Shown here in pieces: positions 35,027-49,534 of a stretch of 64,000 nt of DNA. Position 1 is the first letter of the stretch; every line of letters begins with the position of its first letter. The stretch lies in contig NZ_JACYXK010000019.1 of assembly GCF_014842975.1 (NCBI RefSeq), positions 1 to 64,000 of the forward strand. The letters run 5' to 3'. A program made the translations under genes and the position numbers. Source of the stretch: Rhodanobacter sp. DHB23. GTDB lineage: Bacteria; Pseudomonadota; Gammaproteobacteria; Xanthomonadales; Rhodanobacteraceae. The notes under the pieces are model-generated. The model was not told where the DNA came from. It was given only the letters and a program-made list of their open reading frames with translations, and did not search any database.

Positions 35027-35144
35027 GGATGTGTCCTCGCGTGGGAAAACCCAAGCCTAGCGAGCTGCGGTGTGGCGCAACTGTGCCTGATGGCATGGAT
35101 GGCAGGGCCAGCGGTCGCGTTGTCTTCTGTGGACGGGCTCCGAA

Positions 35145-35205
35145 GTGGTGCCGATGAGCGTGCGATGATCTTGCGGCGTAACCGTGCCATGCTTGCGCGG
35201 GTGAG
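35145..35205 (+). pseudogene. possible relic of borosin-type methyltransferase 3' end
   Basis: The stretch ending CCGTGCCATGCTTGCGCGG matches, with many changes, the conserved 3' part of the methyltransferase gene (40018-40070) and the clearer relic at 42504-42580, and it lies at the equivalent place upstream of the first cyclase gene. The match is short, so the call is tentative. Confidence 0.35.
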
Positions 35206-35282
35206 GAGGCGGGCAACGGATGGCTGCTGCGGCCGGAGGCCGGGTGTTGCATGTCGTTGCACGGGTTTGCAGGGGAAAGGGC

Positions 35283-37052
35283 ATGTCTTGGGTATTCGGC
35301 AGCATCGGAAGGCGGCTCGCCTGGGTGGGCCTCGCCGGTTGCCTGTGCTGGCGGGCCGGCCTTGCCGCCACGCCCGTGGCCGACCCGGATGCCCTGATCA
35401 GGCAGATCTATGCCCTGCAGGTCACGGATCATGCGCGGTCCTTGCAGGTATTGGCCCAGCTCGACCAACTGGCGGCCAGCCTCACGCCCGCCCAGCAATG
35501 GCAGATGCGCTACCTCGACGCCTGGGAGGCCATGTACCAGGGCGACTACGCCAGGTCGGAAGCCATGCTCGACGATGTCATCGAGCGCTCCGGCAACCCG
35601 CACCTGGCGAATCATGCTTCTGCCGTGCTGCTGAGCCAGCTCGGGGCCGCCAGGCATTACACCGAGGCGTTCGAGCTGGCCAACCGTATCGCGGCGCGCT
35701 TGCCGCAGGTCACGGATGCCAAGGAACGCCGCCTGCTGCTGTCCACCCTGTCGCAGGTGATGGGGTCCGCCGGCCAGACCGACCTGGCCGTGCACTACGC
35801 ACGCATGTCGATGGCGACCGTTCCTGCCGGCGAGGACCAGTGCTACCCCACGTCGATCCTGGTCGAGGTGCTTTACTACGGCAAGCGGCTCAAATCCGAA
35901 AGCCCGGAGCTGCAGCAGGGTTTCGAGGCATGCCCGGCGGACAAGGTGTCGCTGTACAACACCAATCTGCACCTCATACTCGTCGACCTGCTGCTGCAGG
36001 AAGGGCAGCCGCGCAAGGCGCTGGCCCTGCTCGACCGGATCCAGCGCAGCGTCGATGCCAACGGCTATGTTCCGGCCCGGTTGTCGGCCCTGGTGGACAG
36101 GGCATCGGCCATGGCTGCCCTGGGCGACGATGGCGCCGCCAGGCGGATGGCGCTGGCGGTCGCCGCCAACGGGAAATCGGGCGACATTGATGCATGGCTG
36201 AAAGAGGCCTACGAGGTGCTCTACCACGTCGAGAAGAGGCAGGGGAATGCCTCTGCCGCGCTCGGTTACTACGAGAAGTTCGCCGCGCTGGACAAGGCCT
36301 ACCTCGACGACATCCACGCGCGTGCGTTGGCCTATGAAGCAGTGCAGCAGCACATGCTGGCGCAGAAGCTGGAGACGGAAAGGCTGGGCAAGCAGAACAC
36401 CGACCTGCGTGCGCAGCGGCAACTGGATGCCAAGACGGCCGAAGCCAACCGGCTCTATCTCGCGCTGCTGCTCATGGCGCTGGGCTTCGGCGCCCTGGCG
36501 ATGTTCCGGCTCAAGCGCTCGCAGCTGCGCTTCAAGCGCTTGTCGCACCTCGATGGCCTGACCGCTATCTACAACCGCCAGCACTTCATGGGCGAGGCCG
36601 GGCGCGCGCTGCACCAACTGGAGAAGCGGAAGGGTATGGCCTGCGTGGCCATCATCGACCTCGACCACTTCAAGAGCATCAACGATACCTATGGCCATGC
36701 CATGGGCGACGAGGTGCTGCGCCGCGTGGTCGCAGCCTGCAAGCAGCACCTGCGCGGCGTCGACCTGTTCGGTCGCCTCGGTGGCGAGGAGTTCGGCATC
36801 CTGCTGGTGGATTGCTCGCGCGAGCAGGGCATGGCGATTGCAGAACGCATCCGCGCGGCCATCGAGGCCACAGTGGCGGAGCGTGACGGCGTGGTGGTGA
36901 CGGTGTCCACCAGCATCGGCCTGGCCTTCACCGACAGCATCGGCCACGACCTGCATCGCCTGTGCACCGAGGCCGATGCCGCGCTGTACCGCGCCAAGCA
37001 TGACGGGCGCAATCGCGTGATGACCGGTGCCGGGTATTTCGTGACGGCCTGA
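35283..37052 (+). CDS. membrane diguanylate cyclase with helical-repeat sensor, copy 1
   Basis: 589 aa. ATG at 35283 with GGGGAAAGGG upstream. Signal-like N-terminus (about 1-29), then a periplasmic all-helical region of TPR-like repeats (30-370; WEAMYQGDYARSEAMLDDVI and similar). A charged coiled coil (about 345-385), a membrane helix (about 391-410) and a cytoplasmic GGDEF domain follow. Active-site GGEEF at 500-504 and inhibitory I-site RGVD at 491-494 are both intact, so it should make c-di-GMP with product inhibition. First of five tandem paralogues. The N-terminal region is the most divergent. No intact small precursor-like gene precedes this copy. Confidence 0.9.
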   Translation: MSWVFGSIGRRLAWVGLAGCLCWRAGLAATPVADPDALIRQIYALQVTDHARSLQVLAQLDQLAASLTPAQQWQMRYLDAWEAMYQGDYARSEAMLDDVIERSGNPHLANHASAVLLSQLGAARHYTEAFELANRIAARLPQVTDAKERRLLLSTLSQVMGSAGQTDLAVHYARMSMATVPAGEDQCYPTSILVEVLYYGKRLKSESPELQQGFEACPADKVSLYNTNLHLILVDLLLQEGQPRKALALLDRIQRSVDANGYVPARLSALVDRASAMAALGDDGAARRMALAVAANGKSGDIDAWLKEAYEVLYHVEKRQGNASAALGYYEKFAALDKAYLDDIHARALAYEAVQQHMLAQKLETERLGKQNTDLRAQRQLDAKTAEANRLYLALLLMALGFGALAMFRLKRSQLRFKRLSHLDGLTAIYNRQHFMGEAGRALHQLEKRKGMACVAIIDLDHFKSINDTYGHAMGDEVLRRVVAACKQHLRGVDLFGRLGGEEFGILLVDCSREQGMAIAERIRAAIEATVAERDGVVVTVSTSIGLAFTDSIGHDLHRLCTEADAALYRAKHDGRNRVMTGAGYFVTA

Positions 37053-37099
37053 CCCGTGCCCCGAGATGCCGGAGTTCACCCTTCCGCAGGCGGTCGGTG

Positions 37100-37195
37100 A
37101 AGATGCTTCGCGCCAGCTCGCCGAAGCGCCTCGGGACTCGGGGAAGCCGTGTTGCTGCCCGCCGTGACCTTGTCGCCGAACCATGCCATGCTGGA
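37100..37195 (+). pseudogene. relic of borosin-type methyltransferase 3' end
   Basis: TTGCTGCCCGCCGTGACCTTG and AACCATGCCATGCTGGA here are near-identical to the last 100 bp of the intact methyltransferase gene at 40012-40070, encoding LPAVTL..NHAMLE in the same frame. Upstream bases still align to CGCGAGCTGGCCGAGG. The remainder of the gene is absent. Confidence 0.7.
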
Positions 37196-37350
37196 GTGGA
37201 CTCAGGTGAGCGTCGGACTCACGGAAGCGATGGTCCCGGGGGATGGCATGCCGTCGAGCAAGGAACGGGGGCTCCAGCAGGCAACGCAAGTACTGGACAG
37301 GCGCCAGACAATGAGGGTGGCAACGAAGACGAACGTGACCTCCCCGGACC
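37196..37350 (+). pseudogene. decayed borosin-precursor-like gene
   Basis: An open frame fused to the methyltransferase relic reads QVSVGLTEAMVPGDGMPSSKERGLQQATQ. This aligns with QASAGLTTAVALGDGVSLRHELGLPQ of the intact small gene at 40183-40491 and its paralogues. The conserved start (MTDTIELLEAIGSDASLRYA) is missing, and the acidic tail is out of frame (DNA still reads GAAGACGAACG). It occupies the expected position upstream of the second cyclase gene. Confidence 0.7.
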
Positions 37351-37433
37351 GGGGCATTGCCGACCCGGTGCGTCGCCATCGCCTCCACCCGCCAGGAAAT
37401 CCGATCGGGCCGAAGCCCGGCAGGTGAAGTCGC

Positions 37434-39203
37434 ATGCTCTGGCGACCGGGCAGTACGGGACGATGGTTTGCAGGCGCGGCTTTCGCAGGCAGCCTGTGCC
37501 TGCAGGCGGCGCATGCCGCCACTGCCATCGCCGATCCGGACACCTTGCTCAAACAGACCTGGGACCTGCAGGTCACGGATCACCCGCGTTCCCTGCAATT
37601 GCTGGCCCAGCTCAATCGGAGCGCTGCCAGCCTGACTCCGGATCAACAATGGCACCTGCGCCTCATGAACGCGTGGGAAGCCAAGTACGAGGGTGACTAC
37701 GGCAGGTCGGAGGCGCTGTTCAAGGACATCGCCCTGCACTCCGGCGATCCGAAGCTGGCGGATCGCGCCTCCGCCATGCTGCTGAGCCAGTACGGAGCCA
37801 CCCGGCGCTACGTCGATGCGTTCGACCTGGCAAACCGTCTCACGGCAAGGCTGCCGCAGGTCGCGGACGCGAAGGTCCGCTATGCGTTGCTGCTGAACCT
37901 GTCGCAGGCGATGGGTCTGGCCGGCCAGACGAACCTGGCCGTACGTTATGCACACATGGCGATGGATGCCGACCATGCCGCGGAAAGCCGTTGTTATGCC
38001 GCCGGCATCCTGGTGGATGTGCTCTTCAGCGGCCACAGGCTGAAACCCGACAGCCCGGAATTGCAGCAGGCATTCGAGGCCTGTCCGCTGGCCACGGAGC
38101 CGCTCTTCAATACGGGCATTGCCCTCGACCTGGCCGACCTGTATGCGCATGAAGGACAGCCGCGCAAGGCATTGACCCTGCTCGACGAGCTCCAGCCACG
38201 CGTGGACGCCGCTGGTGAGGCCTCCAGCAAGCTGGGCGTGCTGGAAACCCGGGCATGGGCGCTGGCCGCCCTGGGGGACGGCGATGCCGCCCGGAAGGCG
38301 GCGCTTGCGGTCATCGCGGCAGCAGCCTCAAGCGGTTTCGACCTGTCGCTGAAAGACGCCTACCAGGTGCTCTACCGCATCGAGAAAGAGCAAGGGAACG
38401 CCGCCGCCGCGCTCGGTTACTACGAGAAGTTCGCGGCGCTGGACAAGGCCTACCTCGATGACATCAACGCACGCACGCTGGCCTACGAAACGATGCAGCA
38501 GCACGTGCTGATGCAGAAGCTGGAGACGGAAAAGCTGAGCAAGCAGAACGCCGGCCTGCGTGCGCAGCGGAAGCTGGATGCCAAGTCGGCCGAAGCCATC
38601 CGGCTTTACTTCGTGCTGCTGTTCATGGCACTGGGCTTCGGCGCCCTGGCGATGTACCGGCTCAAGCGTTCGCAGCTGGGCTTCAAGCGCCTGTCGCACT
38701 TCGATGGCCTGACCGCCATCTACAACCGACAGCACTTCATGGGCGAAGCCGGGCGCGTGTTGCACCAGCTGGAGAAACGGAAGGGCGCGGCCTGCCTGGC
38801 CATCATCGACCTCGATCACTTCAAGCACGTCAACGACACCCATGGGCATGCCATGGGCGACGAGGTGCTGCGCCGCGTGGTCGGCGCCTGCAAGGAGCAC
38901 CTGCGCAGCGCCGACCTGTTCGGCCGCCTCGGCGGCGAGGAGTTCGGCATCCTGCTGGCGGATTGCTCGCGTGAACAGGGCATGGCGATTGCCGAACGCA
39001 TGCGCGCCGCCATCGAAGCCACCGCGGTGGAACTCGACGGCGCGGTGGCGGCGGTGTCCACCAGCATCGGCCTGGCCTTCACCGACAGCATCGGCCACGA
39101 CCTGCATCGCCTGTGCACCGAGGCCGATGCCGCGCTGTACCGCGCCAAGCACGACGGGCGGAACCGGGTGATGACTGGCGCCGGGTGTCTGGTGACGGCC
39201 TGA
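37434..39203 (+). CDS. membrane diguanylate cyclase with helical-repeat sensor, copy 2
   Basis: 589 aa, ATG with AGGTGAA upstream. Same architecture as copy 1: signal-like N-terminus, helical-repeat periplasmic region (LTPDQQWHLRLMNAWEAKYEGDYGRSEALF), coiled coil, membrane helix (LLFMALGFGALAMYRL) and GGDEF domain with GGEEF and I-site RSAD. The C-terminus (YRAKHDGRNRVMTGAG) groups it with copy 1 and not with copies 3-5. It is preceded by relics of both the methyltransferase and precursor genes, so its module has lost those partners. Confidence 0.9.
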   Translation: MLWRPGSTGRWFAGAAFAGSLCLQAAHAATAIADPDTLLKQTWDLQVTDHPRSLQLLAQLNRSAASLTPDQQWHLRLMNAWEAKYEGDYGRSEALFKDIALHSGDPKLADRASAMLLSQYGATRRYVDAFDLANRLTARLPQVADAKVRYALLLNLSQAMGLAGQTNLAVRYAHMAMDADHAAESRCYAAGILVDVLFSGHRLKPDSPELQQAFEACPLATEPLFNTGIALDLADLYAHEGQPRKALTLLDELQPRVDAAGEASSKLGVLETRAWALAALGDGDAARKAALAVIAAAASSGFDLSLKDAYQVLYRIEKEQGNAAAALGYYEKFAALDKAYLDDINARTLAYETMQQHVLMQKLETEKLSKQNAGLRAQRKLDAKSAEAIRLYFVLLFMALGFGALAMYRLKRSQLGFKRLSHFDGLTAIYNRQHFMGEAGRVLHQLEKRKGAACLAIIDLDHFKHVNDTHGHAMGDEVLRRVVGACKEHLRSADLFGRLGGEEFGILLADCSREQGMAIAERMRAAIEATAVELDGAVAAVSTSIGLAFTDSIGHDLHRLCTEADAALYRAKHDGRNRVMTGAGCLVTA

Positions 39204-39280
39204 TGCGCCAGCTGCGATGGCGGGGCGTGCTCCCTGCGCCTCCTGCAAGCAGGGGACGGGAAGTTCGCTAAGATCGCCGG

Positions 39281-40117
39281 ATGAACAACGCCATTCTCTC
39301 TTCCTTGAGCGTTCCCGGCCGCGGCCGCCTGGCCTGCGTGGGCCTGGGCATGACGCTGGGCTCCCATCTCACCCCGCTGGCGCGCAGCCACATCGTGCAG
39401 GCGGACGTGGTGTTCGCCGCGCTCTCCGACGCCATCGCGGAAGAATGGCTCAAGCGCCTGCACCCGGACGTGCGCAGCCTGCAGCCCTACTATGCCGAGG
39501 GCAAGCCGCGCATGAAGACCTACCGCGAATGGGTGGCGTTGATGATGGACGAGCTGCGCGCCGGCAAGCGGGTCTGCGGCGTGTTCTACGGCCATCCCGG
39601 CATCTTCGCGTGGTCGCCGCACAAGGTCATCGAGCAGGCCCGTGCGGAAGGCTACGAGGCGCACATGGAGCCGGGCATCTCCGCCGAGGACTGCCTGTAC
39701 GCCGACCTCGGCTTCGATCCCGGCCGCTACGGCTGCCAGCACTTCGAGGCCAGCCAGCTGCTGTACTGCGAGCGGCGCATCGATCCCGCCGGTTACCTGG
39801 TGCTGTGGCAGGTGGGGGTGGTCGGCAACCGCTCGGTGGGGCGTTTCGACACCGGGCCGGCCTACCGTGCACTGTTGGTGGAGCGGCTGGGACAGGATTA
39901 CCCGCTGGACCATGAAGTCATCGTCTACCGCGGCGCCACGCTGCCCATCGAGCGGCCGCGCATCCAGCGCATCACCTTGCGCGAGCTGGCCGAGGTGCCG
40001 CTGACCGCCGAGGAAACCGTGGTGCTGCCGCCCGCCGTGACCTTGCAGCCGAACCATGCCATGCTGGAACGATTGCAGGCGCTGGATGCAAGGGAAAAGC
40101 AGGGCGCCGTGGCCTGA
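39281..40117 (+). CDS. tetrapyrrole-methylase-fold methyltransferase, split-borosin (SonM-like) type
   Basis: 278 aa. The N-terminal SAM fold has RLACVGLGMTLGSHLTPLAR and VCGVFYGHPGIFAWSPHK (YGHPG at 103-107). The segments MEPGISAEDCLYADLGFDPG, HFEASQLLYC, VLWQVGVVG, YPLDHEVIVYRGATLPIERPRI and LPPAVTLQPNHAML agree almost block for block with what I recall of SonM, the alpha-N-methyltransferase of the Shewanella split borosin. Tyr70/Tyr71, Arg77 and Tyr81 lie where borosin enzymes carry their catalytic Tyr-Arg-Tyr set. It lacks the fused peptide of fungal OphMA, so substrates are separate. A precursor-like gene starts 66 bp downstream. A cobalamin-pathway role is unlikely with no cob genes nearby. 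Confidence 0.8.
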   Translation: MNNAILSSLSVPGRGRLACVGLGMTLGSHLTPLARSHIVQADVVFAALSDAIAEEWLKRLHPDVRSLQPYYAEGKPRMKTYREWVALMMDELRAGKRVCGVFYGHPGIFAWSPHKVIEQARAEGYEAHMEPGISAEDCLYADLGFDPGRYGCQHFEASQLLYCERRIDPAGYLVLWQVGVVGNRSVGRFDTGPAYRALLVERLGQDYPLDHEVIVYRGATLPIERPRIQRITLRELAEVPLTAEETVVLPPAVTLQPNHAMLERLQALDAREKQGAVA

Positions 40118-40182
40118 AGCGAAGCGGTGCGGCACGCCGATGCCGCTTGAGTATGTGGAAACAGGGTGCTGGGGGGGAACAT

Positions 40183-40491
40183 ATGACCGATACGATCGAA
40201 TTGCTGGAAGCCATCGGCAGCGACGCATCGCTGCGCTATGCGCAGACCGACGAGTTGATGGGCGTGCTGGAAGAGGCGCGGGCGAGTGCTGGACTCACGA
40301 CAGCGGTTGCATTGGGCGATGGGGTGTCGTTGCGCCACGAACTGGGTCTTCCGCAAATGTCGGAAACGCCTCAAATGAATTCGCCCGGCCACGGGGACGA
40401 AGAGGAAGAAGAAACCGACGCACCCCAACCAGTGCCGTCCCAACCCGATCGCGCGCTCTCCCCCCTTGCCGGGCAAGTCCTCGCGCGCTGA
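40183..40491 (+). CDS. borosin-precursor-like small protein, copy A
   Basis: 102 aa, ATG with GGGGGGGAAC upstream. The conserved first ~55 residues (MTDTIELLEAIGSDASLRYA ... AVALGDGVSLRHELGL) are predicted helical. They share the ..LLxxIGxDAxL...AVxxGDxxxLxxxLG pattern with the borosin-binding domain of split-borosin precursors such as SonA. The rest is a low-complexity tail: TPQMNSPGHGDEEEEETDAPQPVPSQPD, ending ALSPLAGQVLAR, unlike the RDSSH ends of copies B and C. Candidate substrate of the methyltransferase 66 bp upstream; the cyclase gene starts 14 bp downstream. Confidence 0.7.
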   Translation: MTDTIELLEAIGSDASLRYAQTDELMGVLEEARASAGLTTAVALGDGVSLRHELGLPQMSETPQMNSPGHGDEEEEETDAPQPVPSQPDRALSPLAGQVLAR

Positions 40492-40505
40492 GGGAGAAGG
40501 GTGTA

Positions 40506-42278
40506 GTGGCGCTCCGTTGGCCGAACAACCTGCGGAAATGGGTCGTATGGGTGGGCTTCGCCGGCTGCCTGTGCTGGCGGGCTGGTCTGGCCGCCACGCC
40601 CATTGCCGACTTGGATGCCTATCTCGAGCAGACCCAGACTCTGGCAACCACGGATCATCCGCTCTTCCTGCAACGATTGGCGTTACTCAACCGGGAGGCA
40701 TCCAAGCTGACGCCGGATCAGATGTGGCACCTGCGGTACTCGAACGCGTGGGAGGCCATGTATGAAAGCGACTATGCCAAGTCGGAAGTGCTGTTTCAGG
40801 ACATTATCCAGCACTCCGGCAATCCCGCCTTGGCCGACCGTGCGTCCGCCATGCTGCTCAGCCAGCTCGGGATCACCAGGCAATACACGGAGGCGTTCGA
40901 GCTGGCTGGTCGCGTCGCGGCACATTTGCCGCAGGTCAGGGATGCGAAGGTTCGCTTGCCGCTGCTGCTGAACTTGTCAGTGGCGCTGGGTTTGGCCGGC
41001 CAGACCGACTTGGCCGTGCACTACGCGCGCATGGCGATGGCTACTGTCCCTGCCGGAGATAGTCCGTGCTACGCCGCGTCAGCTCTGGTCGAGGCGCTCT
41101 TCAGCGGTCATCGACTCAAGTCTGACACCCCGGAGCTGCAACAGGCCTTCGATGCCTGTCCGGCGACCACTGAGCCAGTGTTCAACGTGAGTCTGTGGCT
41201 CAGGCTCACCGACCTGTATGTACAGGAAGGGCAGCCGCGCAAGGCACTGGCCCTGCTCGACCGAATCGCGCCCGAACTCGAGGTCAACGGCTATTTGGCC
41301 TACAAACTGGCGGCACTGCTGGAAAAGGCGAAGGCACTGGCTGCCGTGGGCGAAGACGATGCGGCCAGAAAGGCCGCCCTGGCTGCCATCGCCGCAGGGC
41401 CATCGGGTGATTCGGGCGACTGGTTGAAAGAGGCCTATGAGGTGCTGTACCGCATCGAAAAGAAGCAGGGAAACACCGCCGCCGCACTCGACTATCACGA
41501 GAAGTTCGCCGCGCTGGACAAGGCCTACCTCGACGACATCCACGCGCGTGCGCTGGCCTACGAAGCGGTGCAGCAACACGTGCTGGCACAGAAGCTGGAG
41601 ACCGAAAAGCTGAGCGAGCAGAACGCCGGGTTGCGCGCGCGGCAGAGGCTGGACGCCAAGACGGCCGAAGCCAACCGGCTCTACCTCGTGCTGCTGCTCA
41701 TGGCGCTGGGTTTCGGTGCCCTGGCGATGTTCCGGCTCAAGCGCTCGCAGCTGCGCTTCAAGCACTTGTCGCACCTCGATGGCCTGACCGCCATCTACAA
41801 CCGCCAGCACTTCATGGGTGAGGCCGGGCGCGTGTTGCACCAGCTGGAGAAGCGGAAGGGCGTGGCCTGCGTGGCCATCATCGACCTCGACCACTTCAAG
41901 AGCATCAACGATACCCATGGTCATGCCATGGGCGACGAGGTGCTGCACCGCGTGGTCGATGCCTGCAAGCAGCACCTGCGTCCCGTCGACCTGTTCGGCC
42001 GCCTCGGCGGCGAGGAGTTCGGCATCCTGCTGGTGGATTGCTCGCGCGAGCAGGGCATGGCGATCGCCGAACGGATCCGCGCGGCCATCGAAGCCACTTC
42101 AGTGGAACTCGACAGCGTGGTCGTGACGGTATCCACCAGCATCGGCCTCGCCTTCACCGACGCCGCCGGTCACGACCTGCGCCGTCTGTGCACCGAGGCC
42201 GATGCCGCGCTGTACGGCGCCAAGCGCGGTGGTCGCAACCGCGTGATGGCTGGCGCTGAAGGCCTCGCAGTGGCCTGA
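40506..42278 (+). CDS. membrane diguanylate cyclase with helical-repeat sensor, copy 3
   Basis: 590 aa from the GTG at 40506, with GGGAGAAGGG upstream; the signal-like region WVVWVGFAGCLCWRAGLAA follows at once. Helical repeats (WHLRYSNAWEAMYESDYAKSEVLFQ), coiled coil, membrane helix of the copy-1/2 type (MALGFGALAMFRLKRSQ), GGDEF domain with GGEEF and I-site RPVD, and a C-terminus of the copy-4/5 type (YGAKRGGRNRVMAG). It is therefore a mosaic between the two subgroups. The only copy still next to an intact methyltransferase gene: methyltransferase, precursor A and this gene form one apparent operon. Confidence 0.9.
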   Translation: MALRWPNNLRKWVVWVGFAGCLCWRAGLAATPIADLDAYLEQTQTLATTDHPLFLQRLALLNREASKLTPDQMWHLRYSNAWEAMYESDYAKSEVLFQDIIQHSGNPALADRASAMLLSQLGITRQYTEAFELAGRVAAHLPQVRDAKVRLPLLLNLSVALGLAGQTDLAVHYARMAMATVPAGDSPCYAASALVEALFSGHRLKSDTPELQQAFDACPATTEPVFNVSLWLRLTDLYVQEGQPRKALALLDRIAPELEVNGYLAYKLAALLEKAKALAAVGEDDAARKAALAAIAAGPSGDSGDWLKEAYEVLYRIEKKQGNTAAALDYHEKFAALDKAYLDDIHARALAYEAVQQHVLAQKLETEKLSEQNAGLRARQRLDAKTAEANRLYLVLLLMALGFGALAMFRLKRSQLRFKHLSHLDGLTAIYNRQHFMGEAGRVLHQLEKRKGVACVAIIDLDHFKSINDTHGHAMGDEVLHRVVDACKQHLRPVDLFGRLGGEEFGILLVDCSREQGMAIAERIRAAIEATSVELDSVVVTVSTSIGLAFTDAAGHDLRRLCTEADAALYGAKRGGRNRVMAGAEGLAVA

Positions 42279-42402
42279 TGCATGGAGTGGGCTGGAGGGC
42301 ATGCCCATTCCCAGTCTCTTTCAGGTGGCGAAGGGACAGTTGGCTGAGACCGTCGTGGGCCCCGGTCTTGCGGGGTGTTCCGACACTGCGACGGCCTGGC
42401 GT

Positions 42403-42580
42403 GATTGCCCGCCAGAGCACGAAATCGTCTGCCTGGGCACCATATTCCCCGTCGGGTGGCCGCGCGTCCCCAACCCTGTACGGGCTTGCCAAAAGCGCTT
42501 CTGGCCGCCGAAGAAGCCGTTCGGCTCCTCGTCGTGACCTTGCGCAACCGAACCGTGCCATGCTGATGCGGCTGCAGATT
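42403..42580 (+). pseudogene. relic of borosin-type methyltransferase gene (C-terminal third)
   Basis: The frame reads DCPPEHEIVCLGTIFPVGWP, matching DYPLDHEVIVYRGATLPIERP of the intact enzyme. After deletions, GCCGCCGAAGAAGCCGTTC and GTGACCTTGCGCAACCG..CCATGCTG match the sequence encoding the last 35 residues. Frameshifts and a stop at 42535-42537 break it. It lies exactly where an intact gene would sit upstream of precursor B. Confidence 0.75.
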
Positions 42581-42667
42581 CATGATACGGCGGCTCAGGC
42601 CGATACCGTGGTCTGGTTCCGGTGGCGCCGTGAGGCACCGGTACGATCAAAAGGGCAGGGGGACGAC

Positions 42668-42970
42668 ATGACGGATACGATCGAATTGCTGGAAGCCATC
42701 GGCAGCGATGCGTCGCTGCGCTATGCGCAGGCCGGCGAGTTGCAGGCCGTGCTGGAACAGACGCAGGCGAGTGCCGAACTCAAGGCGGCGGTAACCTTGG
42801 GCGACAGCGCGCCATTGCGGGATGAATTCGGGCTTCAGCAGATGCCGCAGACCCCTCAGTCGAATGCACCTGGCCACGGGGACGATGAGGACGGCGAAGG
42901 CGACGTTCCACAGCCGGATCGTCATCATCCCAAGCACTCGCCGGAGCCCAAGCGAGATTCTTCGCACTGA
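42668..42970 (+). CDS. borosin-precursor-like small protein, copy B
   Basis: 100 aa, ATG with AGGGGGA upstream. The N-terminal MTDTIELLEAIGSDASLRYA is identical to copies A and C. The middle ELQAVLEQTQASAELKAAV and GDSAPLRDEFGLQQMPQTPQ is followed by the tail SNAPGHGDDEDGEGDVPQPDRHH and the end PKRDSSH. The strong conservation of the first half and the variable, acidic, His/Pro-rich tail fit a leader/core split. It lies 19 bp upstream of cyclase copy 4 and has no intact methyltransferase next to it, so modification would need the enzyme encoded at 39281. Confidence 0.68.
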   Translation: MTDTIELLEAIGSDASLRYAQAGELQAVLEQTQASAELKAAVTLGDSAPLRDEFGLQQMPQTPQSNAPGHGDDEDGEGDVPQPDRHHPKHSPEPKRDSSH

Positions 42971-42989
42971 CGGCTGGCGGGCTCGCGAC

Positions 42990-44759
42990 ATGGTCCAGTG
43001 GGGAGGCAGCCGGCGGCGCAGGCCTGCGGGAATGGCGTTTGCGGGGTGCTTGTGCTGGAAGATGGCCTACGCTGTTGTGGCCATTGCCACCCCGGATGCC
43101 TTCATCGAGCAAACCCAGGTGCTGGCAACCGTGGATCATCCGCGTTTCCTGCGGCAGTTGGCGTTGCTCAATCAAGAGGCGCCCGGGCTGACGCCGGATC
43201 AGCGATGGCATCTGCGCTATTCGAATGCATGGGAAGCCATGTACGAAGGCGACTACGCCAAGTCGGAAGCGCTATTTCAGGACATCATCCGGCATTCCGG
43301 CAATTCGCGGTTGGCGGATCGCGCGTCGTCCATGCTGTTGAGCCAGTATGGACTTACCCGCCGCTATACGGAGGCGTTCGAGCTGGCTGATCGCCTTGCA
43401 ACCCGTCTGCCGCAGATTACGGATGCCCAAGTGCGCTTCGCGCTATTGCTGAACCTGTCGCAAGCGATGGGTTCCGCCGGGCAGATCGATCTGGCAGTGC
43501 ACTATGCGCACATGGCGATGGCTGCCGTTCCGGTTGATGGCCACCTGTGCTATCCCGTCTCCGAACTGGTCGATGTGCTCTTCAACGGCCACAGGCTCCA
43601 GCCCGACAGCCGGGAACTGCAACAGGCACTGGCTGCCTGTCCCGCGGCTTCGGAGCCGGTGTACCACACTGACCTCATGCTCACGCTTGCCGACCTGTAT
43701 GCGCACGGTGGGCAGCCGCGCGAGGCGCTGGCGCTGCTCGACCGGCTCCAGTCCAGCGTCGAGGCCAACGGCTACGTCCCCAACAAGCTGAGTGCGCTGG
43801 GGGATCGGGCGTGGGCATTGGCCGAACTGGGCGAGAACGATGCCGCCAGGCAGGCGGCGTTGGCCGTCGTTGCCCAAGCCCGATCCGGCGACTTCGGTGA
43901 GTTCCTGAAAGAACCCTACGAAGTGCTCTACCGCGTCGAGAAGAAGCTGGGCAACACCGCCGCCGCACTCGACTATCACGAGAAATTCGCCGCGCTGGAC
44001 AAGGCCTACCTCGATGACATCCACGCGCGTGCGCTGGCCTACGAAGCGGTGCAGCAGCACGTGCTGGCGCAGAAGCTGGATACGGAAAGGCTGGGCGAGC
44101 AGAACGCCGGGTTGCGCGCCCAGCAGAAGCTGGACGCCAAGACGGCCGAGGCCAACCGGCTCTACCTCGTGCTGCTGCTCATGGCCTTGGGTCTCGCCGC
44201 CCTGTTGATGCTTCGGCTCAAGCACTCGCAACTGCGCTTCAAGCGGCTGTCGCACCTCGACGGCCTGACCGCCATCTACAACCGCCAACATTTCATGGAC
44301 GAGGCCGGGCGCCTGCTGCATCAACTGGAACGTCGCAAAGGCATGGCCTGCCTGGCCATCATCGACCTCGACCACTTCAAGCGAATCAACGACAGCCACG
44401 GCCATGCGATGGGCGACGAGGTGCTGTGCCGCGTGGTCGGCGCCTGCAAGCAGCACCTGCGTCCCGTCGACCTGTTCGGCCGCCTCGGTGGGGAGGAGTT
44501 CGGCATCCTGCTGACGGATTGCTCGCGCGAACAGGGCATGGCGATCGCCGAACGCATGCGTGCCACCATCGAAGCCACCGCCGTGGAGCTCGACGGCGTG
44601 GTCGTGACGGTATCCACCAGCATCGGCCTGGCCTTCACCGATGTCGCCGGCCACGACTTGCGCCGCCTGTGCAGCGAGGCCGACGCCGCGCTGTATGGCG
44701 CGAAACGTGGTGGCCGCAACCGCGTGATGGCCGGCGTCGAAGATCTCGCGGTGGCCTGA
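42990..44759 (+). CDS. membrane diguanylate cyclase with helical-repeat sensor, copy 4
   Basis: 589 aa. ATG at 42990, 19 bp after precursor B; the ribosome binding site is weak, suggesting translational coupling. Signal-like region (MAFAGCLCWKMAYAVVA), helical repeats (WHLRYSNAWEAMYEGDYAKSEALFQ), membrane helix LLMALGLAALLMLRLKHSQ shared with copy 5, and GGDEF domain with GGEEF and I-site RPVD. All catalytic and inhibitory motifs are intact. The periplasmic part has diverged much more from its paralogues than the cytoplasmic part. Confidence 0.9.
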   Translation: MVQWGGSRRRRPAGMAFAGCLCWKMAYAVVAIATPDAFIEQTQVLATVDHPRFLRQLALLNQEAPGLTPDQRWHLRYSNAWEAMYEGDYAKSEALFQDIIRHSGNSRLADRASSMLLSQYGLTRRYTEAFELADRLATRLPQITDAQVRFALLLNLSQAMGSAGQIDLAVHYAHMAMAAVPVDGHLCYPVSELVDVLFNGHRLQPDSRELQQALAACPAASEPVYHTDLMLTLADLYAHGGQPREALALLDRLQSSVEANGYVPNKLSALGDRAWALAELGENDAARQAALAVVAQARSGDFGEFLKEPYEVLYRVEKKLGNTAAALDYHEKFAALDKAYLDDIHARALAYEAVQQHVLAQKLDTERLGEQNAGLRAQQKLDAKTAEANRLYLVLLLMALGLAALLMLRLKHSQLRFKRLSHLDGLTAIYNRQHFMDEAGRLLHQLERRKGMACLAIIDLDHFKRINDSHGHAMGDEVLCRVVGACKQHLRPVDLFGRLGGEEFGILLTDCSREQGMAIAERMRATIEATAVELDGVVVTVSTSIGLAFTDVAGHDLRRLCSEADAALYGAKRGGRNRVMAGVEDLAVA

Positions 44760-44809
44760 CGCGCATGATGTGCTGGGAGGGCCTGTCCCTTCTCGGTCTC
44801 TTGCAAGCA

Positions 44810-44940
44810 GGTAAAAGAACACTGGGCAAAGTTGCCGTGGCATGTCGGAAAACCGCGGTGATCCCGCCCGTCGTGACCTTGCAACTGAACCGTGCCATGC
44901 TGGAAGGGCCTGCAGGCGTTGGATTCGGTGGCCAAGGCCG
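44810..44940 (+). pseudogene. relic of borosin-type methyltransferase 3' end
   Basis: Reads TAVIPPVVTLQLNRAMLEGP, matching TVVLPPAVTLQPNHAMLERL of the intact enzyme (40012-40071). After a one-base slip, CTGCAGGCGTTGGATTCG still matches CTGCAGGCGCTGGATGCAA. No upstream domain remains. It lies just before precursor C. Confidence 0.75.
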
Positions 44941-45004
44941 ACGCCATGGCCTGGTTCGGGGGCGGTGCCGATGGCGCCGATGCGATCAGGGGACAGGGGG
45001 ACAC

Positions 45005-45322
45005 ATGACCGATACGATCGAGTTGCTGGAAGCCATCGGCAGCGATGCATCGCTGCGTTACGCGCCGGCGGATGAGTTGAAGGGCGTGCTGGAGCAGGTG
45101 CAGGCGAGCGTCGAACTCACCATGGCGGTGGTGGCAGGCGATGGTGCACCGTTGCGCGATGAACTGGGGCTTCACCAGGCGCCGCAAACGCCTCAGGCGC
45201 CGACCCATGATCCCGGGCACGGGGATGATGACGAGGATGACGAGGGAGTCGTTCACCAGCCTGAGCGTCGCCAGCCCGGCCATACGCCGCCTCATCCCCA
45301 CAAGCGGGATTCATCGCACTGA
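45005..45322 (+). CDS. borosin-precursor-like small protein, copy C
   Basis: 105 aa, ATG with a purine-rich AGGGGACAGGGGG upstream. Same conserved start as copies A and B, then ELKGVLEQVQASVELTMAVV and GDGAPLRDELGLHQAPQTPQ. The tail is APTHDPGHGDDDEDDEGVVH followed by His/Pro-rich sequence and the end HKRDSSH. The only shared tail motif in all three copies is PGHGD plus a run of Asp/Glu. It lies 21 bp upstream of cyclase copy 5. Confidence 0.68.
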   Translation: MTDTIELLEAIGSDASLRYAPADELKGVLEQVQASVELTMAVVAGDGAPLRDELGLHQAPQTPQAPTHDPGHGDDDEDDEGVVHQPERRQPGHTPPHPHKRDSSH

Positions 45323-45343
45323 CCGTTGGCGGACGCGCGATTC

Positions 45344-47119
45344 ATGTCCCGGTGGTTGCGCAGCCTGCGGAGATGGGCCACGGGCATGGGCCTTGCCAGT
45401 GGCCTGTGCTGGCAGGTTGTTCTCGCCTCGACCCCCATCGTCGATCCGGATGCCTTCCTCAAGCAGACCGCTCAATTGCAACTGACGGATCACCCGCGGT
45501 TCCTCGAGCGGCTGGCCCAGCTCAACCAGCAGGCTTCCCGGTTGACGCCGAACCAGTGGTGGCACCTGCAGCAATTGAATGCATGGCAGGCCATGTACGA
45601 AGGCGATTACGCCAAGTCGGAAGCCCTGTTCCAGGACATCATCCAGCACTCTGGCGATCCGGCGCTGGTCGATCACGCATCCGCCTTGTTGTTGGGCCAG
45701 CTCGGGCTCACCCGGCGCTACCCGGAGGCATTCGAGCTGGCCAATCGCCTCACGGCACGTTTGCCGAAGGTGACGGATGCGAAAAACCGTTCATTGTTGC
45801 TGGTGTATCTGTCGAGTACGTTGGGTCTGGCCGGGCAGACCGATCTGGCCGTGCATTACGCGCGCATGGCAATGGCCGCCGCTCCAGCGGGAGAGAAGCA
45901 GGATTCGTGCTCTTCCGCCGCCTTCCTGGTCTCGGCGCTCTACAACGGCCACCGGCTCAAGCCCGACACCCCGGAATTGCAACAGGCTTTCGATGCCTGC
46001 CCGGCGGCCAGCGAGCCGGTGTACAACATGGTCCTGATGTCCACGCTCGCCGACTTGTATGCGAATGGGGGGCAACCGCGCAAGGCGCTGGCCCTGCTCG
46101 ACCGGATCGAACCCTCCCTCGATACCAACGGTTATGTTCCAGCCAAGTTGTCGGCCCTGGTCAGCAGGGCGCAGGCGCTGGCTGCCCTGGGCGACGACGA
46201 TGCCGCCAAGCGGGCGGCGCTGGCCGTGGTCGCCAGGAACAAGTCGGGCGATATCGATGCGTGGCTGAAAGACGCCTACGAAGTGCTTTACCGCATCGAG
46301 AAAAAGCAGGGGCACGCCGCCACAGCACTCGACTATCACGAGAAATTCGCCGCGCTGGACAAGGCCTACCTCGACGACATCCACGCACGTGCGCTGGCCT
46401 ACGAGGCAGTGCAGCAGCACGTGCTGGCACAGAAGCTGGATACGGAACGGCTGAGCGAGCAGAACGCCGCGCTGCGCGCGCGGCAGAAACTGGACGCCAA
46501 GACGGCCGAGGCCAACCGGCTCTACCTCGTGCTGCTGCTCATGGCCTTGGGTCTCGCCGCCCTGTTGATGCTGCGGCTCAAGCACTCGCAACTGCGCTTC
46601 AAGCGGCTGTCGCACCTCGATGGCCTGACCGCCATCTATAACCGCCAGCATTTCATGGGTGAAGCCGGGCGCATGTTGCATCAGCTGGAGAAGCGGAAGG
46701 GTGCGGCCTGCGTGGCCATCATCGACCTCGACCATTTCAAGAGCATCAACGACACGTATGGTCATGCCATGGGCGACGAAGTGCTGTGCCGCGTGGTCGG
46801 CGCCTGCAAGGAGCACCTGCGCGCCGTCGACCTGTTCGGCCGCCTCGGCGGGGAGGAGTTCGGCATCCTGCTGGTGGATTGCTCGCGCGGGCAGGGTACG
46901 GCGATTGCCGAACGCATCCGCAGCACCATCGAAGCCACCGCGGTGGAACTCGACGGCGTGGTCGTGGCGGTGTCCACCAGCATCGGCCTGGCGTTCACCG
47001 ACGTCGCCGGCCACGACCTGCGCCGCCTGTGCACCGAGGCCGACGCCGCGCTGTATGGCGCCAAGCGCGGCGGCCGCAATCGCGTGATGGCGGGCGTGGA
47101 AGGCCTCAGCGTGGCTTGA
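45344..47119 (+). CDS. membrane diguanylate cyclase with helical-repeat sensor, copy 5
   Basis: 591 aa from the ATG at 45344; an in-frame ATG six codons upstream is possible. Signal-like N-terminus (GLASGLCWQVVLASTP), helical repeats (WHLQQLNAWQAMYEGDYAKSEALFQ), coiled coil, copy-4-type membrane helix, and GGDEF domain with GGEEF and I-site RAVD. The C-terminus is YGAKRGGRNRVMAGVEGLSVA. The last gene of the array; the next gene is convergent. Intact motifs in all five copies argue that the family is maintained by selection. Confidence 0.9.
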   Translation: MSRWLRSLRRWATGMGLASGLCWQVVLASTPIVDPDAFLKQTAQLQLTDHPRFLERLAQLNQQASRLTPNQWWHLQQLNAWQAMYEGDYAKSEALFQDIIQHSGDPALVDHASALLLGQLGLTRRYPEAFELANRLTARLPKVTDAKNRSLLLVYLSSTLGLAGQTDLAVHYARMAMAAAPAGEKQDSCSSAAFLVSALYNGHRLKPDTPELQQAFDACPAASEPVYNMVLMSTLADLYANGGQPRKALALLDRIEPSLDTNGYVPAKLSALVSRAQALAALGDDDAAKRAALAVVARNKSGDIDAWLKDAYEVLYRIEKKQGHAATALDYHEKFAALDKAYLDDIHARALAYEAVQQHVLAQKLDTERLSEQNAALRARQKLDAKTAEANRLYLVLLLMALGLAALLMLRLKHSQLRFKRLSHLDGLTAIYNRQHFMGEAGRMLHQLEKRKGAACVAIIDLDHFKSINDTYGHAMGDEVLCRVVGACKEHLRAVDLFGRLGGEEFGILLVDCSRGQGTAIAERIRSTIEATAVELDGVVVAVSTSIGLAFTDVAGHDLRRLCTEADAALYGAKRGGRNRVMAGVEGLSVA

Positions 47120-47167
47120 TCCGCCGTCGCGACCCGGCCAGCGCATGCGGCCAGCCGGACAAGCCGC

Positions 47168-47701
47168 CTACGCTTCGTCGCCCTGCAGCGACTTGAGCAG
47201 TTGGAACAGCTCGCGGAACGCGCGCGGCGGCTTGTTCGGCGTGGCCTTCTCGACGCGCGCCTGGCGGATCAGGGCGCGCAGGTGCTGGCGGTCCACGCTG
47301 GGGTGCCGCTCGATCAGTTCCGACGCCGCCGCATCGCCGTCGTCGCCCAGCAGGCGCTCGCGCAACGCTTCCATGCGGTGCATCGCGGCGGTTTCCTGCC
47401 GCTGGCGATCGCGGTTCTCGCCCAGCGCGGCGCGTACCGCGTCGAAGGCTTCGCTGTCGTGGCGGCGCATCAGCTTGGCGAGGAAGGCCAGCTCACGCTT
47501 GCGCGCGATGTGCGAGGTGATGCGGCGCACGTGGGCGATCTCGTTGCGCACGTCCTCGGGCAGCTCCAGCTTCGCCAGTCGCGTCGGCGGCAGTTCGACC
47601 AGCTGGTTGGCCAGTTCCAGCACGGCCAGCGCGTCGCGGCGCTGCTGGGTGCGGGTGGGACCGTAGTCGTGGTCGGGGTCGTCGGTGTAGTTGCGGTTCA
47701 T
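47168..47701 (-). CDS. yjgA: ribosome-associated protein YjgA (DarP, DUF615)
   Basis: 177 aa. Matches the DUF615/YjgA family: GPTRTQQRRDALAVLELANQLVELPP near the N-terminus, LPEDVRNEI, ITSHIARKRELAFLAKLMR, and the C-terminal RHPSVDRQHLRALIRQA...KPPRAFRELFQLLK. It assists late 50S ribosomal subunit assembly. It overlaps the DUF1653 gene upstream by four bases. In many relatives it sits next to pmbA, as here. Confidence 0.92.
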   Translation of the reverse strand: MNRNYTDDPDHDYGPTRTQQRRDALAVLELANQLVELPPTRLAKLELPEDVRNEIAHVRRITSHIARKRELAFLAKLMRRHDSEAFDAVRAALGENRDRQRQETAAMHRMEALRERLLGDDGDAAASELIERHPSVDRQHLRALIRQARVEKATPNKPPRAFRELFQLLKSLQGDEA

Positions 47702-47952
47702 GGGTTTTCCAGCAGGCCCGGGTGTTCGAACAGGCCGGGTTCGGCCTGTTCCAGCGCGAAGCGGGGCACGCGCGCGCCATCCACGGTCACGGTTTCGGCG
47801 AACATCGCCGCGGGGCGCACCCACAGGCCGTGTTCGCCGTACAGCGCCTGGTACACCACCAGCGGTTCTTCCGTCTCGCTGTGGCGCGCAGTGCCCAGCA
47901 CGCGGTAGCGCTGGCCCTTGTAGTGGCGGTAGAGGCCGGGGACGACCGACAT
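47698..47952 (-). CDS. DUF1653 domain protein
   Basis: 84 aa, complete small domain: PGLYRHYKGQRYRVLGTARHSETEE followed by VVYQALYGEHGLWVRPAAMF, the DUF1653 signature. Function unknown. ATG at 47950-47952; its stop overlaps the start of yjgA (ATGA), so the two are co-translated. It is divergent from pmbA over 118 bp, which should hold both promoters. Confidence 0.85.
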   Translation of the reverse strand: MSVVPGLYRHYKGQRYRVLGTARHSETEEPLVVYQALYGEHGLWVRPAAMFAETVTVDGARVPRFALEQAEPGLFEHPGLLENP

Positions 47953-48070
47953 GTGCTGCTCCGCGATGCGTTGCGGGTGGGCCGCGGCGTCCCCATGTGG
48001 AGACGGCACGGCGCGGATCGTGCATTCTACCCGTTTGAATCCTGTTCGTTGACTTGACCGAGAGTTTCCC

Positions 48071-49438
48071 GTGAGCGAGATCGCCACCCGCACCGACCGC
48101 AGCCTTGAGGAACTGGACCGCCTCGCCAACCTCGCCGGGGACGTGATCCGTCGCGCCCGTGCGGCCGGGGCCAGCGCCGCCGAGGTGGCCGCCAGCATCG
48201 ACACCGGCCTCAACGTCAACGTGCGGCTGGGCGAAGTGGAGACGGTGGAGCACACCCGCGACCGCGGTTTCGGACTCACCGTGTACTTCGGCCAGCGCAA
48301 GGGCTCGGCCAGCACCGCCGACCTCAACCCCGATTCGATCCAGGCCACGCTGGACCAGGCCTGTGCCATCGCCAGGTTCACCGAGGAGGATCCCGCCGCG
48401 GGGCTGGCCGACGCCGCACGCATGGCCAGGGATTTCCCCGACCTCGACCTGTGGCATCCGTGGGCGATCGACACCGCGGGCGCCATCGACCTGGGCCGGC
48501 GCATCGAGGACGCCGGCCGCGCGCATGCGGGCATCGCCAACTCCGACGGCGCCGGCGTGCAGGCCGGCGAGAGCCTGTCGGTATACGCGAACTCGCACGG
48601 TTTCCTTGGCCGCGAGCGCGGCACGCGGCATTCGCTGTCGCTGTCGCTGATCGCCGGCGAAGGCGAGCGCATGCAGCGCGACTACTGGTACGACAGCGTG
48701 CGCGACGCCGGCGATTTCATGAGTGCCGAGGCACTGGGCGACAAGGCCGCCCAGCGCACGCTGGCGCGGCTGGACGCGCGCAGCCTCGCCACGCGCGAAT
48801 GCCCGGTGCTGTTCGCGCCGGAGATCGCGCGCGGGCTGGTCGGCCACCTCGTCGGCGCGGTGAGCGGCGGCGCGCTGTATCGCCGCGCCAGCTTCCTGCT
48901 CGACCATGCCGGCAAGGCGATCATGCCGGCGTGGCTGCACATCGACGAAAAGCCGCACCTGCAGCGCGGCCATGCCTCGGGCAACTTCGACGCGGAAGGC
49001 GTGGCCACGCGCGACAGCGCCCTGGTGACGGGCGGCGTGCTGGCGCGCTACGTGCTGGGCAGCTATTCGGCACGCAAGCTGGGCCTGCAATCCACCGGCA
49101 ACGCCGGCGGCATCCACAACCTGCAGGTGACGGCCGGTGCGGCCGATGGCGAGGCCAGCGACTTCGCCGGCATGCTGCGCCGGCTGGGCACGGGGCTGCT
49201 GGTCACCGAGGTGATGGGGCAGGGTGTGAACACCATCACCGGCGACTACTCGCGCGGCGCGGCGGGCTTCTGGGTGGAGGACGGCGCGATCGCCTACCCG
49301 GTCGAGGAGATCACCATCGCCGCCAACCTGCGCGACATGTACGCCGGTATCCGCGCCGTCGGTGCGGACGTCGACCCGCGCTCGCACATCCTGTGCGGCT
49401 CGATCCTGGTGGAAAAGATGACGGTGGCCGGCGGGTAA
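48071..49438 (+). CDS. pmbA: metalloprotease PmbA (TldE)
   Basis: 455 aa, GTG start. The inactive-subunit partner of the TldD/TldE protease, which processes peptides such as microcin B17 and degrades unfolded leaders. Family blocks: VNVRLGEVETVEHTRDRGFGLTVYFG, GRERGTRHSLSLSLIAGEG, and the C-terminal TGLLVTEVMGQGVNTITGDYSRGAAGFWVEDG. tldD is not in the window. It may matter to the peptide system at 39-47 kb, because TldDE enzymes mature RiPP-like peptides in several pathways; that link is speculative. Confidence 0.93.
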   Translation: MSEIATRTDRSLEELDRLANLAGDVIRRARAAGASAAEVAASIDTGLNVNVRLGEVETVEHTRDRGFGLTVYFGQRKGSASTADLNPDSIQATLDQACAIARFTEEDPAAGLADAARMARDFPDLDLWHPWAIDTAGAIDLGRRIEDAGRAHAGIANSDGAGVQAGESLSVYANSHGFLGRERGTRHSLSLSLIAGEGERMQRDYWYDSVRDAGDFMSAEALGDKAAQRTLARLDARSLATRECPVLFAPEIARGLVGHLVGAVSGGALYRRASFLLDHAGKAIMPAWLHIDEKPHLQRGHASGNFDAEGVATRDSALVTGGVLARYVLGSYSARKLGLQSTGNAGGIHNLQVTAGAADGEASDFAGMLRRLGTGLLVTEVMGQGVNTITGDYSRGAAGFWVEDGAIAYPVEEITIAANLRDMYAGIRAVGADVDPRSHILCGSILVEKMTVAGG

Positions 49439-49534
49439 GTCCGGCAAATTCTTGCGGCTTTGCGGTGTTTGGCTTGCTAGCATGCGGATTACCGGCGATC
49501 GGCCGGCGACTTTCGATGCACCGAGGAGATGCGC

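Follow-up and report, generated by a model that had tools for sequence, protein, structure and literature searches.

We analysed a 64-kb window at the start of contig C10 (NZ_JACYXK010000019.1) in the 3.97-Mb genome of Rhodanobacter sp. DHB23, and found an array in which a methyltransferase of the split-borosin type is combined with three small precursor-like proteins and five membrane sensors that carry a predicted diguanylate cyclase domain. Related loci were collected from other genomes (148 loci in total, giving 145 other loci with distinct enzymes after merging of identical enzymes only), and at most of them the enzyme and a cyclase of the same kind again stand side by side; the borosin–cyclase module is not special to the source organism. 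Our favoured reading, which we place slightly short of even, is that the array is a split-borosin system of the class of ribosomally synthesized and post-translationally modified peptides (RiPPs) that works in signal transduction, with the modified peptide as the dedicated input to the tetratricopeptide repeat (TPR) sensor of the cyclase.

The methyltransferase

The enzyme is predicted to be a SonM-type split-borosin alpha-N-methyltransferase, as a preliminary description of this DNA had proposed. The four open reading frames (ORFs) named there were all recovered, the methyltransferase at 278 aa and the small proteins at 102, 100 and 105 aa, and enzyme and precursor are on separate genes (39281–40117 versus 40183–40491 and so on), the arrangement by which a split borosin is recognized. 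The best PDB match of the enzyme was SonM (E = 1.2e-72); fungal enzymes of the OphM type were matched at 1e-43 to 2e-47 and precorrin-2 methylase, a cobalamin enzyme, far more weakly at 1.8e-4, and a grouping with cobalamin or siroheme methylases did not arise. Pfam placed it in TP_methylase only (6.7e-22), and no NCBIfam cobalamin model came near its cut-off. Tyr70, Arg77 and Tyr81, which had been singled out beforehand, were found at these positions and align with SonM Tyr58, Arg67 and Tyr71. The available part of the SonM study describes these three SonM residues as important for the enzyme (PMC8429565), and each is retained in 148 of the 149 aligned enzymes. The position of SonM Y93 is also identical, and the two enzymes agree at six of the seven positions compared. 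The named relatives nearest to the window enzyme were from Rhodanobacter, with up to 94% identity over the best segment, and no second enzyme of this kind was found in the source genome at E <= 0.001.

The precursor-like proteins

Profile comparisons and a structural model together show the small proteins as predicted SonA-type precursors, with a five-helix binding domain, a candidate core and an acidic tail. Their first 20 residues are identical in all three and their tails diverge, in agreement with the invariant start and variable tails reported earlier. An iterative profile was seeded with the three window proteins and run only on ORFs that share the enzyme's strand and lie no more than 6 kb from it. 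It gathered 139 ORFs at 114 of the 148 loci, one of the 139 being a decayed remnant in the window. The final profile, trained on these near ORFs, matched 139 of the 14,227 ORFs near the enzyme versus 1 of 20,933 others, and the lone off-target match, in L152, lies just ahead of a TPR diguanylate cyclase gene on the opposite strand. Twenty-one loci were classed as methyltransferase followed by cyclase; a small ORF comes after the enzyme in all 21, and most of these ORFs share the same plan as judged by eye (L127 fits poorly, and the sequences of L052 and L156 are identical).

The region after the binding domain is of three kinds. The window type has the segment PQxxQxPGHEEE, type b has a hydrophobic cysteine stretch and then proline and an acidic run (NVCCMVxPxxEDDEE), and the third is short and SonA-like; the tails are acidic, with a mean D+E fraction of 0.26 in the window type and 0.28 in type b. 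We relate the window precursors to SonA because type b links the two as an intermediate and because there is a weak direct profile match. In comparisons of separate sets, the window type aligned with type b at an hhalign E-value of 2e-19, type b alone reached SonA in the PDB at E = 3.4e-7 and the SonA type at 5.3e-12, and the direct comparison of the window type with the SonA type was weak (hhalign probability 91, E = 1.2e-6). A mixed profile containing SonA-like members matched SonA at about 1e-16; neither the single window protein P0002 nor a profile built solely from 29 window-type precursors reached SonA in the PDB. In the AlphaFold2 model of precursor 3, residues 2–54 form five helices and the tail is of low confidence; 10 of the model's 14 Foldseek matches were SonA chains, with a best E of 1.4 and none significant. 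The borosin-binding domain claimed beforehand for these proteins is thus borne out by the chain through type b and by the five-helix model. Among 87 aligned precursors, the LigA family (PF07746) is matched by 26 and Nif11 (PF07862), a leader family of other RiPPs, by 2.

The cyclase sensors

The five cyclases are predicted to be membrane sensors with a periplasmic TPR-like region, one transmembrane helix and a diguanylate cyclase domain, a topology predicted from hydropathy only. Each has a hydrophobic start, an all-helical region, a transmembrane segment (residues 389–415 in cyclase 3, the AlphaFold2 model of which has a mean pLDDT of 93.1) and a GGEEF domain, and the Pfam GGDEF profile was matched over its full length in all five (E = 5e-40 to 6e-42). 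We use the name TPR because matches below the Pfam cut-offs in the window cyclases are joined by matches above them in relatives (L137, L157) and by helix pairs in the model. The 50 PDB matches shown for the cyclase were all GGDEF structures, and a search of the PDB by sequence gave no clear relative of the TPR-like ectodomain (best E = 0.061).

For an alignment, 84 sensors were chosen from 123 listed relatives, with the start corrected for one window copy. As in other membrane diguanylate cyclases (GGDEF, PF00990), the GGEEF motif is present in 84/84 of these chosen relatives and a transmembrane segment in 82/84; the RxxD inhibitory site was found in 58/84 and a hydrophobic N-terminus in 78/84. 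What the window sensors add to that general plan is the TPR-like ectodomain with two cysteines, invariant in 84/84, which would fit a disulfide outside the cytoplasm.

Association of enzyme and cyclase across genomes

The tie between small-protein and cyclase genes, described beforehand for this window alone, recurs in other genera and orders. Among the 145 distinct loci, 116 have a TPR diguanylate cyclase within 1.5 kb on the same strand, 4 have it fused to the enzyme, 10 have another arrangement and 15 have none; several loci come from one genome (e.g. L025 and L053) and are therefore not independent. The scan of the contigs of named genomes, which picks up close relatives only, yielded 58 loci, 55 of them with such a cyclase; the exceptions were L008 and L033, which stop at a contig edge, and L051, which has no TPR diguanylate cyclase. 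In the class, order and phylum samples (89 loci), the cyclase was adjacent in 63, fused in 4, otherwise arranged in 10 and absent in 12. A GGDEF gene lay within 4 kb in 77 of the 89, a tally that includes L085, where the match is to the TPR part of a neighbouring TPR histidine kinase. Besides L085, the 10 loci with another arrangement include L105 (TPR diguanylate cyclase 2.1 kb off) and L152 (opposite strand); in the remaining seven the GGDEF gene was not matched over the sensor part, that of L151 being a 7TMR-DISM-GGDEF protein. The loci without a cyclase were L008, L033, L124, L144 (enzyme at contig end), L161 (TPR kinase), L051, L084, L164, L086–L090, L162 and L163. Regarding coverage, 69 fetched stretches cover 70 of the 84 listed places outside the family, 11 of the 12 new places outside the family from the phylum search were fetched, as were 9 of 10 from the class search (the tenth being the window), and places from the family search were fetched only where other searches also brought them in.

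The source genome has 38 GGDEF matches, 33 of them outside the array. A GGDEF gene within 1.5 kb of a random gene on the same strand is expected in about 1–2% of cases, as judged from this genome only, versus 120 of the 145 other loci, so the pairing is not due to chance. In 197 genomes of the source's own family, which are mutually related so that a Fisher value on these counts does not give a fair probability, enzyme and sensor ectodomain occur together in 123, the enzyme alone in 5, the sensor alone in 1 and neither in 68, and presence or absence of the two thus agrees in 191 of the 197. The enzyme was present in 10 of 369 class-sample genomes (E <= 1e-10) and 15 of 398 phylum-sample genomes (E <= 1e-20), and the module extends beyond the source's own order to other orders of these samples and to named Alteromonas, Neptunicella and Undibacterium.

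The order of genes is methyltransferase, precursor, cyclase in 74 of the 148 loci and precursor, cyclase, methyltransferase in 21. Of 100 adjacent precursor–cyclase pairs, with a median distance of 17 bp when overlaps are counted, 94 are separated by no more than 60 bp; one window pair in this set, as in the 97 pairs used below, involves the decayed remnant, and the pair of precursor 1 and cyclase 1 was left out because of a wrong cyclase start. In the window the gaps of pairs 1, 2 and 3 measure 14, 19 and 21 bp, with cyclase starts picked by alignment, and the range of 14–21 bp given beforehand stands.

A proposed signalling role for the modified peptide

According to the favoured reading, the enzyme would methylate backbone amides just after the binding domain in the cytoplasm, and the modified peptide, or modified protein, would be a dedicated ligand for the TPR domain of the cyclase encoded 14–21 bp downstream. 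The ligand-bound sensor would then set the output of cyclic di-GMP (c-di-GMP). Tandem duplication would have produced the five cyclases and the three intact precursors as diversified peptide–receptor pairs that share one enzyme. We favour the peptide as ligand because the TPR sensor keeps its place while outputs change: in L085 and L161 a TPR histidine kinase with receiver domains follows the enzyme and a precursor (weak matches of 33 and 29 bits), suggesting that the membrane sensor can stay while its output is exchanged. In a partial Mantel analysis of 97 pairs (199 permutations), the precursor tail co-diverged with the ectodomain (partial r = 0.34 given GGDEF, 0.29 given the enzyme) and hardly with GGDEF given the ectodomain (0.07). 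This leans to the ligand reading; it is suggestive, not specific, and decides nothing. With noticeably less assurance than the role itself, we extend the proposal to the bacterial split borosins of this clade, which may be backbone-N-methylated signal peptides, not antibiotics, with their own periplasmic TPR receptors and an output by c-di-GMP or, in some species, phosphotransfer, and which may diversify through tandem-duplicated precursor–receptor pairs served by one methyltransferase.

Several observations weigh against the peptide as ligand. No neighbour that we found accounts for cleavage of the peptide or its passage to the periplasm: in most of the 148 loci no exporter lies beside the module (neighbours within 6 kb were clustered), and no signal-peptide-like start was seen on the precursors by eye, no predictor being run, so that a periplasmic ligand is left with no known route. 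Proteins in which GGDEF and methyltransferase are fused suit a cytoplasmic coupling equally well. The binding domain, for which contact with the receptor is not required, also tracks the ectodomain given the enzyme (partial r = 0.27), which makes the co-divergence test not specific. The window cyclases match TPR families only below the Pfam cut-offs, the window enzyme has N in place of SonM E173, and one sensor gene (G117:C1:819032) lies far from the only enzyme of its genome (C1:3549494). The 15 of 145 loci with no cyclase include all seven whose enzymes were matched at less than 190 bits (L086–L090, L162, L163), indicating that the cyclase link marks one large part of the enzyme family.

The main rival, which we consider unlikely though the strongest of those weighed, is a regulatory complex in the cytoplasm. 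The precursor–methyltransferase complex, or the methylated small protein, would be a regulatory subunit touching the GGDEF half or the membrane-proximal helix, and the TPR region would sense something else. It ranks first among the rivals because fused proteins exist and no export gene was found. In L136, L137, L140 and L142 the TPR-GGDEF part and the methyltransferase share one ORF (Pfam was run on that of L137 only), with the enzyme after GGDEF and hence on the cytoplasmic side; the acidic tails of the window type and type b, modelled with low confidence, and the lack of a common exporter beside the module also fit. The exchange of the output for a histidine kinase in L085 and L161 leaves the TPR sensor as the constant partner, which argues against such a complex, in two loci only and with weak precursor matches.

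The direction of control may also be reversed, a prospect that we find more doubtful again: the TPR cyclase would sense an outside cue, and c-di-GMP would turn on production or release of the borosin toward other cells. Borosin clusters are usually taken as natural-product pathways in the part of the SonM study available (PMC8429565), the genes are co-directional with short gaps, and a GNAT acetyltransferase, a possible tailoring enzyme, is present at 42 of the 148 loci. However, no c-di-GMP riboswitch or other Rfam family was matched at the gathering score in 34000–49500, transporter genes are not common beside the module, and arrays multiply precursor and cyclase together (the window, L034, L035 and L044), which would be odd for a single master regulator.

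That the pairing is merely an inherited gene order with no functional link is highly improbable: most fetched loci come from one order and some share a genome, which means that they are not independent, but the two gene orders, the fusions, the kinase in place of the cyclase, the occurrence in other orders and the matched presence and absence in the own-family genomes all argue against it. The reading of the enzyme as an ordinary cobalamin or siroheme methylase with unrelated small proteins, for which the broad Pfam family alone speaks, is already contradicted by the sequence, given the distance between the SonM and precorrin methylase matches, the cobalamin models and the borosin active-site residues that are kept.

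Relation to known systems

Split borosins with a separate precursor and its binding domain have been described, and in the available part of that study the SonA leader is a five-helix binding domain, SonA having 71 residues with the core at its C-terminus, residues 62–71 (PMC8429565). The SonM/SonA pair of Shewanella oneidensis (type IV) likewise has separate enzyme and precursor, and the window enzyme is 47% identical to SonM; the five-helix precursor model and the shared SonM residues add to the likeness. In contrast to SonA with its C-terminal core, the window precursors are about 100 aa long and continue with an acidic tail after a candidate core of the PQxxQxPGHE type, and three intact precursors and five cyclases are united in one array. 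The three nearest SonM relatives fetched (L157, L158 and L160; 67–77% identical) also carry a precursor and a downstream TPR diguanylate cyclase.

Neither 'GGDEF' nor 'c-di-GMP' occurs in the text of PMC8429565. The preliminary description knew of no borosin–cyclase module, which does not hold: the Fig. 1 legend of Xu et al. 2024 (PMC11395268) already lists a 'GGDEF-sequence-containing domain' among borosin architectures, and the accessible part of that paper reports borosin types V–X found through prediction and experiment. The fused loci (L136, L137, L140 and L142) may be of the GGDEF type known to us from this legend alone, whereas enzyme and cyclase in the window are on separate genes. Within the literature searched, which did not extend to the primary surveys (Imani 2022, Lee 2024), this was the only paper with both 'borosin' and 'GGDEF', and none combined 'borosin' with 'diguanylate cyclase' or 'c-di-GMP'. 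Part of the finding may thus already be in print; the borosin–GGDEF link is not wholly new, and its function is undescribed in the accessible literature.

Among peptide receptors, those of the RRNPP type offer a likeness, with a TPR superhelix that may receive peptides and whose gene lies next to a peptide gene. RRNPP-type receptors are cytoplasmic regulators of Gram-positive bacteria, whereas the TPR region of the window sensors is predicted to be periplasmic and is joined to a cyclase. The pairing of enzyme and cyclase in many related bacteria hints at the purpose of the little-understood borosin peptides and offers a concrete, testable function, namely peptides feeding c-di-GMP sensors. The three nearest SonM relatives among the loci fetched have the same third gene, and this function may therefore be accessible to experiments in laboratory bacteria that are already well studied. 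If the proposal is true, backbone-methylated peptides would join bacterial signalling, with a class of receptors whose ligands are encoded next door.

Organization of the array

All genes of the array are on the + strand and run D D M p D p D p D, with M for the methyltransferase, p for a small protein and D for a cyclase (Table 1). The preliminary description had it begin at 39281; its three precursor–cyclase pairs stand, but this start is too late, and the cyclases at 35283–37052 and 37434–39203, the decayed precursor and the methyltransferase remnants had been missed. Between the two upstream cyclases, the decayed precursor is joined to a remnant of the 3' part of the methyltransferase gene, and two more such remnants sit ahead of precursors 2 and 3. 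The remnants suggest growth of the array through duplications in which the copied unit contained at least the 3' end of the methyltransferase gene. Repeated genes are also seen elsewhere: L036 has two methyltransferase–precursor–cyclase units in tandem, and L025 has a second methyltransferase and precursor with a partial cyclase.

Table 1. Genes and gene remnants of the borosin–cyclase array, in window coordinates
Feature	Position	Strand	Basis
Paralogous TPR-TM-GGEEF cyclase (TM, transmembrane), first in array	35283..37052	+	Pfam GGDEF 5.7e-42 in ORF 35220-37052; start by alignment
Methyltransferase 3' part remnant	37110..37195	+	blastn inside window, 80% over 90 columns
Decayed precursor, codons 28-61 only	37189..37289	+	blastn and tblastn inside window, 71% over 101 bp to precursor 3
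Paralogous TPR-TM-GGEEF cyclase upstream of methyltransferase	37434..39203	+	Pfam GGDEF 1.3e-40; alignment
Predicted split-borosin alpha-N-methyltransferase, 278 aa, TP_methylase fold, SonM type	39281..40117	+	Pfam TP_methylase 6.7e-22; PDB SonM E 1.2e-72
Precursor-like protein 1, 102 aa, predicted binding domain and acidic tail	40183..40491	+	20-residue start common to all three; iterative profile
Predicted TPR-TM-GGEEF diguanylate cyclase 1, GTG start 40506	40506..42278	+	Pfam GGDEF 2.1e-40 (read from 40503); alignment
Methyltransferase 3' part remnant	42403..42565	+	blastn inside window, 69.5% over 174 alignment columns
Precursor-like protein 2, 100 aa	42668..42970	+	Shared 20-residue start; iterative profile
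Predicted TPR-TM-GGEEF diguanylate cyclase 2, ATG start 42990	42990..44759	+	Pfam GGDEF 5.4e-41 in longer ORF from 42822; alignment
Methyltransferase 3' end remnant	44850..44953	+	blastn inside window, 78% over 104 bp
Precursor-like protein 3, 105 aa	45005..45322	+	Shared 20-residue start; AlphaFold2 model, five helices in residues 2-54
Predicted TPR-TM-GGEEF diguanylate cyclase 3, ATG start 45344	45344..47119	+	Pfam GGDEF 5.3e-40 in ORF from 45326; AlphaFold2

Other neighbouring genes and divergent loci

Clustering of ORFs of at least 120 aa within 6 kb of the enzyme gave one more conserved neighbour family, that of a GNAT acetyltransferase; all seven members tested matched PF13302. Among the 33 clustered loci the gene was on the enzyme's strand in 33/33 and at most 200 bp from an enzyme, precursor or cyclase ORF in 32/33, several copies reaching or slightly overlapping the enzyme ORF (examples are L093:6552-7082, L106:3665-4198 and L112:7816-8355). 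The 42 loci counted above are those where a GNAT profile matched within 4 kb on the enzyme's strand; the window had no match. The acetyltransferase may act on the peptide in the lineages that have this gene. A cluster of ABC transporters at 15 of the 148 loci was considered as the exporter and rejected, as it consists of mixed proteins, many of them ABC ATPases, at varying positions and on both strands (one member, from L134, was confirmed as ABC_tran). A peptidase M90 gene lies near the enzyme on the opposite strand in nine loci, the only one tested being L111:5661-6464 (-) (PF06167, E = 1.6e-81). None of these three families is common enough to provide export or cleavage in the module at large, and the other larger clusters were mostly ORFs overlapping the three module genes themselves. 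Downstream of the array the window encodes a PmbA/TldD peptidase (48071–49438; Pfam PF19289, E = 1.7e-61), a family involved in RiPP maturation; it was rejected as the maturation protease because, in the DNA analysed, L002 is the only other locus with a relative close to the enzyme.

Seven loci (L133, L145, L151, L166, L168, L169 and L171) have a different borosin cluster, in which the precursor precedes the methyltransferase and a GGDEF gene about 1.5–1.8 kb upstream has a sensor part different from that of the window cyclases, in L151 a 7TMR-DISM. These loci share a related same-strand gene, the copy of which directly upstream in L133 is a flavin amine oxidoreductase (PF01593, E = 3.1e-36), possibly an extra tailoring enzyme. 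In L164:1241-5673 (-), a precursor-like ORF and a 540-aa protein with two methyltransferase domains adjoin a TIR-TPR protein (PF13676, E = 2.1e-22). The 1174-aa ORF of L162:3843-7364 (-) is possibly a large fused borosin: a methyltransferase domain lies close to the N-terminus (PF00590, E = 1.9e-13), and Pfam matched nothing else in this ORF at E = 0.01. In L157:7750-9774 (SonM-like, from another family) and L051:10329-12136 (Dyella), the borosin genes lie by eye near genes that we take to be smpB/bamE-like, and in L157 an integrase-like ORF follows.

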